Of a DNA stretch of 64,000 nt, positions 52,480 to 58,535 are shown one piece after another. The stretch is from NCBI GenBank assembly GCA_002102555.1, contig MCFL01000064.1, positions 1 to 64,000 on the forward strand. The letters are read 5' to 3'. The translations under genes were made by a program, and so were the position numbers. Position 1 is the first letter of the stretch; each line of letters begins with the position of its first letter. The DNA is from Catenaria anguillulae PL171. Taxonomy: Eukaryota; Blastocladiomycota; Blastocladiomycetes; Blastocladiales; Catenariaceae. The notes beneath the pieces are model-generated. The model was not told the DNA's origin. It saw only the letters and a program-made list of their open reading frames with translations, and searched no databases.

Positions 52480-53345
52480 GCTGGTCGGTGCGTGATTGCT
52501 GACAGTCGAGTCACAGTGTCAATAGTGCAAAGCTGAGGTTTCAGGCTGGCACATCCCAATCATGTTTCGTTGTGCTATCTCGGACGGTCCCAGGTCTCAC
52601 GCGGTCGGATCGGAGGCCCATCTCATTGATCACCCTCAATCTCAACGGCCTCCTGAAGTTGGGCCAAGCCCAAAACAATTGGGAATTGTAACTGGCAAGA
52701 CTGCACGGTTGCGAGTAAGTATATCTTGAGTGACTGGCCAACCTGGTTATTGCTCACAATTCGTCAACAAAGAATTGAAGGGAGCCTTGAAGCACTGCGG
52801 CCAGCCAAGTCTCGGCGCGGATTTGCATGATTCGGAATCGGGCAATCGGAAGCATTTGCTGGCAAGTCCAAATCTGGCCAATAGCCGGGATGAAATGGTG
52901 GCTGTGAGAGGCGTCGCTGCACATGGCAAAGACGTACAGTAGATGGAAGCAAGTTCTGGAAGATGATGGTGAGGCTTGGACACGGCTTGACGAGATGAAA
53001 ATGCCAACAACCGGGCAACTCTGGACGTGGTTGAGTTTGCGGTGCCTGCCGATTGTACTCAGTTTTTGTTATGTTTCAACGTCGGCCGTGGGCGCAGCAC
53101 CGATGCAGAAGCTGCCAGAAGGCGCGGCAAGGTGATGGGCGAGATCGTCCATGGCCACACAGCCGAGTAAAGTGCCACCGATGGAGCTTCCCAGAGACAC
53201 ACACTCAACAGACAGACAGAAGCCCAGGGTATAAAGAGGAGGCGTCTTCCCGCGACTCTCCTTCCTCTCTCGCACAAACCCCACATTGTCTCGCGCACTC
53301 GCAAACGTCACGAATCACTCATCCCTCTTCATCACCAACATCAAC
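52480..53345. other. Intergenic region upstream of PNP
   Basis: Divergent from the small gene. The sequence just before PNP is rich in CATCAACATCAACATG-type leader. No gene supported. Confidence 0.45.
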
Positions 53346-54281
53346 ATGGCACCCGTCGTCCCCACCCTCAAGGAGTACCAAGCCGCCGCCGACTACCTCC
53401 GCTCGCGCATCCCCGCCGACGCCAAGCCCACGGTCGGCATTGTGTGCGGATCCGGCCTCGGCCAACTCTTCACGCTGCTTCAAGAGCCCGTCTCTGTCGA
53501 CTACGAAGAGATCCCGTCCTTTGTCAAGTCGACCGTTGCCGGCCACGCGGGCAAGCTCGTCTTTGGCCGCCTCGGCAAGCAATACGTGATCTGCATGGTG
53601 GGCCGCTTCCACCCGTACGAGGGCTACACGCCACAGCAAGTCACCTTCCCGCACCGTGTCATGGCCCTGCTCGGCATCAAGCTTCTCATTGTGACCAACG
53701 CCGCGGGCGGCCTCAACGAGTCGTACAATGTGGGCGACATCATGTGCATTGCTGACCACGTTGCCATCCCCATGATTGCCGGCAACAACCCGCTCGTTGG
53801 CCCCAACATGGAAGAGTTTGGCCCGCGGTTCCCGCCCACATCGGATGCCTACCCCAAGACTGTCCGCAAACACGCCTTCAAGGTTGCCCACCAGCTCGGT
53901 CTTCTCAACAAGGTCCACGAGGGTGTCTACTGCTTTGTTTCTGGCCCGCAATACGAGACGCGCGCAGAGTGCCGCCTGCTGCGGTCGATTGGCGGTGATG
54001 CCGTGGGCATGTCGACTGTGCCCGAGGTTGTGATTGCCCGCCACGCCGGCATTGCCGTTCTCGGCTTCTCGCTCATCACCAACCGGGTCGTGTCTCAGCG
54101 CGAACCTTCCATCAAGGAGGAGCTCTTGCGCGAGCTCGAGGGCAAGACCGACAAGGTCGAGGAGAAGGTTGTCCATGCCTCGCACGCTGAGGTGTTGGCC
54201 GCGTCCAAGGATTTTGCCACCGATGTGCTCAACTTGGTTCGCAAGGTTGTTGAGGAGTTGCACACTGTTGAAGGTTTCTGA
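53346..54281 (+). CDS. PNP1: Purine nucleoside phosphorylase
   Basis: Intronless, 311 residues, starting at the ATG after CATCAACATCAAC. It has the trimeric PNP signatures: GIVCGSGLGQL phosphate loop, GHAGKLVFGRLG, GRFHPYEGYTPQQVTFPHRVM, TNAAGGLNESY, DHVAIP, GPQYETRAECRLLR and AVGMSTVPEVVIARHAGI. The purine-site Asn is in GFSLITNRV. The enzyme cleaves inosine and guanosine with phosphate for purine salvage in the cytosol (family knowledge). Length and motifs are normal. This frame needs no correction. Confidence 0.96.
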   Translation: MAPVVPTLKEYQAAADYLRSRIPADAKPTVGIVCGSGLGQLFTLLQEPVSVDYEEIPSFVKSTVAGHAGKLVFGRLGKQYVICMVGRFHPYEGYTPQQVTFPHRVMALLGIKLLIVTNAAGGLNESYNVGDIMCIADHVAIPMIAGNNPLVGPNMEEFGPRFPPTSDAYPKTVRKHAFKVAHQLGLLNKVHEGVYCFVSGPQYETRAECRLLRSIGGDAVGMSTVPEVVIARHAGIAVLGFSLITNRVVSQREPSIKEELLRELEGKTDKVEEKVVHASHAEVLAASKDFATDVLNLVRKVVEELHTVEGF

Positions 54282-54939
54282 AGCGACCAAGTCTGCGGCG
54301 TGTCAAAATGTCGATTGTACTTGTTGTCATCGTCGTGTCGCCGTCATCGCTCATTGCACACTTGTTTCATAACTCTTTTCTTTCCCCCTCTCCCCTTTTG
54401 GAGTGATGCTCTCACCTTGGCCCATTTTTTTATTCCAAATTTATCATCTCGGATTGGGCCACTGTCTCCTCCCGTTGTCTTTGGCGTTTGTGAATGCAAA
54501 CAATCACCATACACGAAGCAATTTTTTTTTCTGCTGTGAATCCATGCCAATGTTGGCATCCGCTTGCCTTAAGGATTTGGCAAGAGCCAGCAATTGCTTG
54601 GCGCCGGCTCACTGCTGGCATTTGCCTCGCTCCATTGGTGCTTGCTTCATGACCTGTGTGCCGCTCAAGGAGAAACTTTGCTGCCGACTGACATGCGCTT
54701 GAGTCACTCACGGCACGGCGCGCCACCCATCCAGACCAGACCACAGCAGTCCAGACCCGACTTGCCAAGTCTGAGAAGGACCGTTGGGCAGTGGTGGTCG
54801 TTTCAATTGCCAAGGTGAGGACGAGTACAAATGCCGAGCTCGGCCCGCCGCCCTCCAGCATATGTAGCCTGTAGCCTTACTCTCATCGACTCGGATAGTA
54901 TTGACCACATGCCAGCACCCGCCCACATACTCCAGCACC
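54282..54939. other. Intergenic spacer
   Basis: No gene supported between PNP and the U-box gene. Confidence 0.45.
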
Positions 54940-57095
54940 ATGACCACGTTCCCGTCCGCCTTCATTTGCCCAATCACCAAGGCCGTCATGCGCGACCCGG
55001 TCATTGACCGCGACGGCAACTCATTTGAGCGTGCCGCCATCCAAGAATGGCTCGCCCAGCACGGCACCTCGCCAATCACCCGTAACCCAATGTCGGTCTC
55101 GGATCTCGTTCCCAACCGTGACCTTCGCCATCTCATCGAGAGCTCACTTGGCGCTACACCTTCCGCGCCGCCGAGCGTGCAACCCACTGCTGCTGCCGTT
55201 GCCATCGCTCTTCCGACCGATGAGGTTGTGCGCGTCACGGCCGAACAAGACGGCGACCGCCTCTGGGTGCGCATCCACCCAGAAAACTCGCAAACACGCT
55301 CACCCGTCGACCTCGTGTGTGTGATTGACATTTCCGGATCCATGGGCACCGAGGCCGTCATCAAGACTGCCGCCGGCGTCGAAAACAACGGCCTTTCGAT
55401 TCTCGACGTGGTAAAGCACGCTCTCAAGACCATCATTGCCTCACTCGGCCCCAACGACACACTGAGTCTGGTGACATTTGAATCCAAGGCTCAAGTCCTT
55501 CGCGCTCGTGTGGCGACCACGGACGCAAACAAGCCTAGCCTGATCCAATCGGTCGACTCGATGCGGCCAATGGACATGACCAACCTGTGGGACGGCATGA
55601 AGAAGGGGCTTGGCATCTTTGCCGGCCACCAAGACGAGGGCAATAGCGAACAACGCGTTCCAGCCATGTTTATCCTCACGGATGGCCAGCCAAACATTGC
55701 CCCGCCGCGCGGCCACTGCGAGGCGATCAAGCGGTACACGGCCGAGCATGGTGTCCGATGCACGCTCAACACGTTTGGGTTTGGGTACTCGCTCGACTCG
55801 GAGCTATTGCACGATTTGGCAAAGTTGGGCGACGGGTTGTATTCCTTCATTCCTGACGCGGGCATGGTGGGCACCGTGTTTGTGCACGCGCTGGCAAACA
55901 CGTGCGCAACCATGTGCACCGATGTCGCATTCAAGATTGGCAACCAGGAGCATCGGATTGGCACCATTCAGTACGGGCAGACGCGCGACGTGGTTGTGGA
56001 TCGATCCAATGCCGCGGCGGCCGGCGAGCATATCCAACAAGTGGACGTGTCATATGTGCCCTGGTGGACCAACTCCAAGCACACGCTGCAAGTCGCTGTG
56101 GGTCCAGTCTCAGACAAGAACAAGCACGAGCTCGAGGCGCAGCACTTGCGACAAAAGGCTGCCGAGGCCATGGTTGCCAAGGATCAAGCCCCATTCAAGC
56201 CATTCTCGCCGCCCACCCAACCACCGACGGCCGTGTTACGGACAAGCGCATCCAGGACCTGCTGACGGACCTGACTGGCCAAGGCGTGCTCGCATTCGAA
56301 CCCGAACACTTTGCCCGCTGGGGCAAACACTACCTGCCGTCGCTCGGCCGCTCGCACTTGCTGCAGCAATGCAACAACTTCAAAGATCCCGGCGTCCAGC
56401 ACTACGGCGGCCCGCTCTTCAACACGTTGCGCGACAAGATGGACCGCATCTTTGACGACCTGCCCCCCGCCGTCCCTTCGATCCGCCAGTACGTTGACCG
56501 CCGCACAAACACGGTCAGGGCGTCCGCACCCGTCAGCATGGCGTCGTACAATTCGCGCGCCGACCCGTGCTTTGGCGGCGACTGCCTGATTGCCATGGCA
56601 GATGGATCAACGAAAAAAGTCGGCCATGTGCGCAAGGGTGACTTGGTCAAGACCGAACAGGGCGCCGCATTGGTCGAGTGTGTATTGAAGACGGTCAAGC
56701 CCGACCCGTCGTTGCTCGTGCGCCTCGGCAACCTTGCCATCACGCCCTGGCATCCCGTCAAGCACCACGGCAAGTGGGCGTTCCCATACGATGTCGCTTC
56801 GGCCGCCGCACATGCACGCGAGTGGCCTGGGATGGAGCAAAGTGTGGTGCCCGTGTACTCGCTTTTGCTGCAGCAGCATCACACGGTGATTATTGACGGT
56901 TGGGTGTGCGTGACGCTTGGGCATGGGTTGGTGCATGACCCCGTGTGCGGGCACCCGTTCTTTGCCGGCAATGAGGTTCGCGAGTGTTTGGAGAAGATGA
57001 AGGGGTTTGAGGACGGTCTGGTGTTGACAAGCGGGGTGGAGCGGGATTCAAAGACGGGGTTGGTGTGTGGGTTTGCCCCGTTGGATGAAGAGTGA
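54940..57095 (+). CDS. U-box / von Willebrand A / Hint-domain protein
   Basis: The N-terminal U-box starts FICPITKAVMRDPVIDRDGNSFERAAIQEWL; such domains bind E2 enzymes and act as ubiquitin ligases. A vWA domain follows with a MIDAS motif (DISGSMG, then DTLSLVTFESKAQ and FILTDGQPN). A Vint-like beta region and linker come next. The C-terminal Hint domain (CFGGDCLIAMADGSTKKVGHVRKGD ... TPWHPVKHHGKW ... VCVTLGHGLVHD) has the hedgehog/intein autoprocessing fold. The frame shifts at the C run 56,189-56,192 between the vWA/Vint part and HPTTDGRVTDKRIQDLL; one base restores it. Only about 70 residues follow the final Hint motif. Whether it self-cleaves is unknown. Start chosen at the ATG preceding the U-box. 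Confidence 0.85.
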
Positions 57096-57655
57096 GAGTC
57101 GTTGTGTGTACATAGTTGTGGGAAAGGTTTGTTGATTTGCTCTTCTCGTCTTCTGTTGTCAGTGTGTTTCCCATTCTTTTGTGCGCTTGGCTGTGGGCGT
57201 TGTAAATACATTGCCTTACATGTTCCCGTTCATTCAGTCGAGGTTTCTGGCTCATCAACAACTGATACAGGAATACGCGAACTGTGAGACGAAGCTGGAC
57301 AAGAAAAATCTATTACTGTATCGCTCTTCAAAACTTGATTTGAAGCATGGATCGAGTTCCAAGACACCCACCGCAAACACTCAGTGCCGCCATTTCCTCA
57401 AGCACCCACACCATTCCACACATGGGCCGTCGCCACCGGCATCGCCCTGCTGTCTTGCCTCTCACGACGGATCAGCCACAATCCTCACTGCCATGACGCC
57501 CGTTCCTATTCTTTTGCATTTTACCAAGCCGGCCAAGATGCACACATTCACTCGCATCTTCCGAATGCCGGCTGGAATTGACTGCCGTCCGTCCGATCTG
57601 GGGAGGTAAACATTTGGGTTTACCACGAGGTACGTCCAACCCTGCATTCTACAGA
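57096..57655. other. Intergenic region or unresolved 5' exon
   Basis: A frame around 57,384-57,581 (AVATGIALLSCLSRR ... FYQAGQDAHIHSHLPNAGWN) has protein-like composition but stops at a TGA before VNIWVYHE. A GTACGT...CTACAG segment (~57,631-57,655) could be an intron into the next gene. No function recognised. Confidence 0.3.
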
Positions 57656-58535
57656 CTGAGCGAAGTCCCGTGTTCGGGCGGTGATCCATCCATCGACACT
57701 CCAACGCCAAGTGGCCGCAAACGCGGCCGCCCGAAGAAAACCCAGGAAAATCGCTCCGAGCTAGAATCGGCTGACGTCTGGAAGCTTGTGCACAACCTGT
57801 ACAGGTACTATTCGACTGTGATTACGGATTCCGATTTCGCCCTCAAGGAGGCCAAGATGGACTCGAAGGTTAGAACGGACCGCCCAGCTTGGATGTTGAA
57901 CGAGGATCTTGAGCTGTTGAAGGCGATCAAGCAGTCAGGGGACGATTCAGAGGATGGGACGATTGATTGGGAGAAAGTCAAGGAATCCATGGAAACGACC
58001 GTGCGTTGCTACGATGGCGAGCCTCGTCGCTCGTACACGATTGGTCGCAGTGGCAACTTGCCGCGGCGATTCCGAAACCTTTGTGACAATTTTCTCACCG
58101 CCAAGCTCCTGGACGGCGCATCGGGTTTGGGCGACGTGGAGTTCACTGAGTGTCATGATTTGCTGTTGTCGCTGACGGAGTTGGGCGTGGGCGAAGATGG
58201 TCTGTTGCATGTGTACTGACTCAGTCCATGTTGCATTCCTTGCTGACCATCTGTGTTGTGAATGTAGATGAGCAAGACGAGGTGGCTTTTGCACTTCAAG
58301 ACAAGAACGAGGAGGAGGCCAAAAGGACGGCTGAGCTCAGCAACGGATCGCTGTCCACAGGTCGCATGACCAAGCAGGAGCAGTTGAAGAGCACGCTTGA
58401 TGAGTCGCACGAGAACGAGGTCGACAAGATCCCAAGCAAAAAGCCGCGGTTGACACAAGGCGAGACGGGCCACGCTAAGTATGCTCGAGCAGATGGCCGA
58501 CACAATGTCAGTTTTGCGATCCCTTGTCGGCTTTA
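57656..58535 (+). CDS. AT-hook and Myb/SANT-like nuclear protein, hypothetical
   Basis: The main exon (to ~58,218) has an AT-hook-like GRKRGRPKKTQ, ADVWKLVHNLYRYYS, a SANT/Myb-like PAWMLNEDLELLKAIKQSG with IDWEKVKESM, and PRRFRNLCDNFL. A GTACTG...TGTAG intron (~58,212-58,267) may lead to a charged exon (DEQDEVAFALQDKNEEEAK ... KKPRL), though the phase does not fit without a one-base change. Such proteins usually bind DNA or chromatin (family knowledge). The 5' end is uncertain. Confidence 0.45.

Follow-up and report, generated by a model that had tools for sequence, protein, structure and literature searches.

A U-box, VWA, Vwaint and Vint protein of Catenaria anguillulae and relatives that end at the predicted Vint cleavage site

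The window analysed here is a stretch of 64,000 nucleotides (nt) from Catenaria anguillulae PL171 (positions 1 to 64,000 of contig MCFL01000064.1, assembly GCA_002102555.1), and our subject is one plus-strand gene within it, at 54940-57095, whose product comprises a U-box, a VWA domain in which the metal ion-dependent adhesion site (MIDAS) is intact, a Vwaint domain and a Vint-type Hint domain (Table 1). All four domains score well above their Pfam cut-offs, far beyond chance. The original prediction, made from the DNA sequence, had named the U-box with its CPI and DPV motifs, the VWA domain with its DxSxS metal site and the Hint domain with its CFGGDC start and HPV motif, and all three stand, U-box and Vint profiles both scoring over the curated cut-offs in the profile search it had proposed; the Vwaint domain between VWA and Hint it had left unnamed. 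The MIDAS is complete, and all 120 relatives compared (the best 120 of 767 matches, out of 7997 candidates scored) keep D130, S132, S134 and D248, while all but one keep T214. A model of the Vint domain, obtained by the structure prediction also proposed earlier, has a predicted Hint fold, and C1 aligns with residue 258 of Hedgehog and residue 1 of inteins. Neither a Hedge nor a ubiquitin-like domain gave a Pfam match at E 1 or better in the N- or C-terminal piece of the protein. The Vint domain is the only one found in the Catenaria genome (a single match in 41.07 Mb, 457 contigs).

Table 1. Positions in the window of the features of the gene
Feature	Position	Strand	Basis
N-terminal gene part (residues 1-411; U-box and VWA)	54940..56172	+	Frame 1; first ATG at 54940
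U-box, CPIT...DPV...WL...SPITR...PN (residues 5-68)	54952..55143	+	PF04564, 56.4 bits (cut-off 21.4; Pfam scan); PDB U-box matches
VWA domain (residues 124-301)	55309..55842	+	PF00092, 43.9 bits (cut-off 23.8)
MIDAS D130-x-S132-x-S134, with T214 and D248	55327-55341; 55579; 55681	+	Family conservation
Shift of reading frame, frame 1 to frame 3	56173..56231	+	Family profile, linker lengths, candidate introns
Vwaint domain	56241..56444	+	PF14624, 91 bits (cut-off 23.5)
Conserved ten-residue tail before the predicted cleavage site	56538..56567	+	M at -10, Y at -7, Pro at -1
Vint (Hint-type) domain	56565..57071	+	PF14623, 150.8 bits (cut-off 27)
C1, predicted Vint nucleophile (block A), first residue of CFGGDC	56568..56570	+	Alignment
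Block B TxxH, reading TPWH	56742-56753	+	Vint domain
HPV motif	56751-56759	+	Vint domain
Additional near-invariant His codons in Vint	56922-56924; 56952-56954	+	
Stop codon, no C-extein after Vint	57093..57095	+	Open reading frame list

The original prediction had alluded to a frame change in speaking of a frame-corrected protein, and the shift of frame between 56173 and 56231 indeed means that no single open reading frame (ORF) spans the gene. In frame 1 a stop at 54865 lies upstream of the first ATG, and Vwaint and Vint are encoded by a second ORF, in frame 3, that ends at 57095. To place the change, 171 relatives were used to build a family profile, the window and its best match, P0003, being excluded; the profile matches the N-terminal piece to residue 411 and the C-terminal piece from 56232, with 30 model positions and 59 nt of the window between them. 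P0003, which bears the name hint-domain-domain-containing protein and comes from Catenaria anguillulae PL171, covers 83% of the query at 99% identity. This deposited model begins at residue 51 of the N-terminal piece, and thus lacks most of the U-box; it tracks the window to residue 411 and then omits 74 nt (56173-56246) as an intron. The linker it leaves between two conserved positions is 15 residues long, the shortest of all the proteins measured (the next shortest are 30 and 36, most are 40-60 and the mode is 50), and if the codons of both frames are counted around the change the linker is of about 40 residues, within the family range. Moreover, none of the 13 GT-AG candidate introns (40-199 nt) at the frame change has a GTRNGT-like donor. 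An intron is thus disfavoured; a real intron with a poor donor may be present. At near-invariant positions the N-terminal piece has the family residue in 62 of 62 cases and the C-terminal piece in 29 of 31. Linker length, poor donors and the residues kept are best fitted by a very recent change or a mistake in the assembly, rather than by long decay. The frame shift, the minimal linker and the poor donors are also what one would expect if the Catenaria copy were a pseudogene, or if a sequencing or assembly error broke an intact gene, which we regard as somewhat unlikely; decay is in addition countered by the near-invariant residues. Two separate genes, on the other hand, are rejected, because homologues carry both halves in one protein, with all four domains in 95 of the 120 listed, as the original prediction of one protein had it. 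Overall, the protein is typical of an already known family, and its deposited gene model is wrong.

That family, the VWA-Vwaint-Vint proteins, was defined by Bürglin 2008 (PMC2362128), the available parts of which describe the same domains in the same order and note four such proteins with a U-box. The combination of U-box, VWA and Vint is therefore not new, being known in single-celled eukaryotes and fungi; the original prediction had rightly treated a VWA-Vint-Hint combination as known in protists and fungi and had placed the novelty mainly in function, but the joining of U-box and Hint is no novelty either. Compared with those proteins the Catenaria architecture is identical, and only the frame change and the truncated deposited model set this copy apart. 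According to the same parts of that paper, the family was thought not to be secreted, lacking a signal peptide, and Vint was not classifiable as intein, Hog or BIL. The survey of architecture that had been suggested agrees: in the 120 listed homologues a precomputed Pfam column gives U-box in 117, Vint in 98 and both in 95, our own profiles give 118, 98 and 96 on the same proteins, and among 231 distinct proteins they detect Vint in 197 and U-box in 167, with 145 having both (these sets took the best-scoring matches up to a limited length, include partial proteins and are no census). Many relatives keep Vint without a U-box, for example in the fungi Serendipita and Orbilia and in a clade with Symbiodinium. 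Thus, Vint appears to act on the VWA-Vwaint body and not as a specific ligase switch, and the link between cleavage and ligase activity suggested earlier is tentative. Vint proteins occur in protists, in fungi and in at least one giant-virus assembly, since U-box, VWA, Vwaint and Vint are all above cut-off in P0107, named as a protein of a Terrestrivirus metagenome-assembled genome (MAG), which thus holds the whole gene. No relative in viral contigs was confirmed in scans with A1 and P0107 as queries, and the sole match in a phage collection was weak, spanned 31% of the query and lay in an unannotated record. On a contig that binning assigned to a gammaproteobacterial MAG there is a 707-residue ORF (L002:606-2729) in which U-box, VWA, Vwaint and Vint with C1 are seen by eye; beside it lie a RING-like ORF (L002:4757-5314, also by eye) and a lysine/arginine-rich ORF, neighbours that suggest a mis-binned giant-virus or eukaryote contig.

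In all 109 proteins that match Vint in full, the match ends 1-39 residues from the C-terminus. In alignments to intein structures no Asn-type block G is found in Vint at the positions where inteins end, and most of these alignments stop near model residues 241-244, which read T-L-G-H. With both the C-extein and the block G Asn absent, splicing is rejected, and cleavage is the likelier outcome, as originally proposed.

Of the 231 proteins, 34 lack Vint by profile, and 16 of these contain the NFKD motif of Vwaint. Ten of the 16 (P0019, P0160, P0162, P0165, P0190, P0193, P0209, P0215, P0229 and P0231) end exactly one residue before the position of C1. All ten have Gly at -1, together with Tyr or Phe at -7 and Met at -10, and Vint-bearing relatives share this pattern. 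A careful tree was built on VWA-Vwaint columns from 52 rows picked to surround the Vint-less forms, P0138 being left out; on it the Vint-less label requires seven changes, some of which may be regains, and at least five are forced by well-supported branches; a single origin of the Vint-less forms is recovered in none of 200 bootstrap trees. A quick tree of 196 of the 231 proteins, from which Vint-less rows with other ends were left out, requires eight. P0160, without Vint, and P0188, with Vint, are sisters with support of 100/98 and are 65% identical. Judged on these features, the relatives ending at -1 look like encoded pre-cleaved forms, and would favour cleavage in cis with an exact C-terminus. 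Among the papers listed in literature searches that included Vint and Vwaint, no title or abstract opening mentions Vint-less forms ending at the cut site.

From the domains and conserved residues observed, and from the predicted fold, we infer cleavage, its product and an E3 ubiquitin ligase activity, and we favour, as moderately probable, a reading in which Vint is a cis-acting maturation device that releases the U-box-VWA-Vwaint body and is neither an intein nor a specific ligase switch. Vint would attack the peptide bond before its Cys (codon at 56568) by an N-S acyl shift and would then leave the body as a disposable domain, freeing the U-box-VWA-Vwaint part with an exact C-terminus that ends in the conserved tail M-x2-Y-x6. 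The U-box would serve as a normal E3 module, binding a ubiquitin-conjugating enzyme (E2), and VWA-Vwaint as a metal-dependent partner-binding body. In the main rival, the Vint thioester would be passed to a nucleophile, leaving the U-box-VWA body covalently attached to something, much as Hedgehog passes its thioester to cholesterol, or the BIL2 domain of the Tetrahymena ubiquitin-like locus to a substrate lysine. We consider such a transfer unlikely, because the pre-cleaved relatives presumably work with the plain C-terminus that a stop codon gives, and thus suggest that such a C-terminus suffices, and because no adduct of a Vint protein turned up in the searches made.

Release in cis leans on the ten relatives, which could instead be artefacts, with C1 encoded by UGA (as selenocysteine or otherwise recoded) or with isoforms that retain an intron or are polyadenylated early. 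Gly at the end of all ten would be accounted for by an exon that ends in phase 2 before GTAA; the same Gly, however, stands at -1 in 12 of 12 of their Vint-bearing neighbours. Room for a hidden Vint was assessed on the 109 rows with contig size from the search started with P0019, of which 96 bear Vint (figures transcribed by hand; an earlier control of 33 picked rows, mostly from short contigs, was redone with all 109). Of the nine forms ending at -1 for which a contig is listed, eight have 28-227 nt of contig outside the coding sequence, resembling the Vint-bearing contigs below 5 kb (n = 77), in which the median is 223 nt and 39 have at most 227 nt; over all 96 the median is 270.5 nt. With no room for Vint, a Vint hidden behind a recoded UGA is unlikely for these eight, and selenocysteine at C1 is disfavoured for eight of nine as the cause of the -1 ends. 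P0215, with 731 nt outside its coding sequence, and P0019, without a listed contig, leave some scope for an artefact. Within the five nearest rows of each form, identity to a Vint-bearing protein reaches 65% at most, so that no Vint isoform of the same gene is seen there. Altogether, we find it distinctly unlikely that the -1 ends are artefacts.

Several observations weigh against release in cis, or against the use made here of the relatives. Pro stands at -1 of the Vint Cys in the window (56565-56567) and in 82 of 184 relatives; Pro at this position hinders the N-S acyl shift in inteins, is thus unexpected and is not explained by the reading we favour. The frame break could mean that the Catenaria copy makes no full-length protein. 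Six of the 16 Vint-less relatives (P0005, annotated as partial, P0013, P0061, P0210, P0216 and P0220) end elsewhere, and of the ten ending at -1 only P0019 has a U-box. Nine of those ten were found only in the search started from P0019, itself one of them, and the sample is thus enriched for such forms and not random. The Vint-less label is mildly clustered on the careful tree, since 11 of 500 shuffles needed as few as seven changes, and room on the contig is by itself an imperfect test, since 19 of the 77 Vint-bearing contigs below 5 kb have at least 500 nt outside the coding sequence. The frequent Pro at -1 might also point to Vint as an inactive structural domain, but the near-absolute conservation of C1, T/S and H across Vint relatives makes this very improbable.

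If Vint does release the body in cis, we would further suggest, more tentatively, that it exists mainly to make one exact C-terminus on the VWA-Vwaint body, with or without a U-box, that several lineages independently exchanged the self-cleaving domain for a stop codon exactly at the scissile bond and so encode the mature form directly, in the way that some ubiquitin-like modifiers are encoded without their tails, and that the exposed ten-residue tail is a functional group for docking, lipidation or conjugation. A Cys lies within the last five residues in seven of the ten forms ending at -1 (P0019, P0160, P0190, P0193, P0209, P0215 and P0229) and in 26 of 184 Vint-bearing proteins (Fisher p 0.0002, kinship ignored), and is possibly a lipidation site. 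What is new here, the Vint-less relatives that stop exactly at the predicted cut site, hints at the purpose of cutting, and the parts of the literature covered give no function for Vint proteins. Provided that stop codons were fixed repeatedly at this site, evolution has already performed the experiment of cleavage; the cleavage product, its exact end and its independence from Vint then become directly testable, and the question shifts from splicing versus conjugation to the role of the exposed tail, including that on a ubiquitin ligase. The pre-cleaved relatives are thus the part worth following.

Among proteins with a Hint fold, the solved Vint of Tetrahymena thermophila (PDB 8r2c) comes from a host protein that differs from the Catenaria one; its crystallised sequence has Ala at C1, and a short peptide of that entry is found in none of the listed relatives. 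This structure is said to have revealed ligand-regulated cleavage through an added recognition region. BIL2, from a polyubiquitin-like locus of Tetrahymena (6y75, 6tmm), shares with the proposed Vint the Hint fold, the link to ubiquitin and the thioester chemistry at the N-terminal junction. However, BIL2 lies between ubiquitin-like domains and, in the available parts of its description (PMC8616854), splices or conjugates to a substrate lysine, whereas the Catenaria protein has neither a ubiquitin-like domain nor a C-extein. Inteins differ from it in having a C-extein and the C-terminal Asn of block G. The Hedgehog autoprocessing domain (1at0) is likewise C-terminal, but the Catenaria protein lacks a Hedge domain and has no known sterol step, and the absence of a signal peptide noted for the Vint family is a further difference. 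In plants, an E3-type zinc module is joined to VWA-Vwaint as in Catenaria, with RING in place of the U-box and no Vint reported in the parts of the papers covered; At5g60710 is one such protein (PMC2362128), and wheat has 20 RING proteins with VWA and Vwaint (PMC8169666). Another use of this body without Vint is seen in Lr9, a wheat protein for leaf-rust resistance, which the accessible part of its report describes as a fusion of a tandem kinase with VWA and Vwaint (PMC10260399).

Downstream of the gene, an ORF at 57578-58216 contains a GRKRGRPKK stretch and has no Pfam match at 0.001. Upstream, the gene at 53343-54278 encodes a member of the phosphorylase superfamily (PF01048, 173.8 bits), probably a purine nucleoside phosphorylase.
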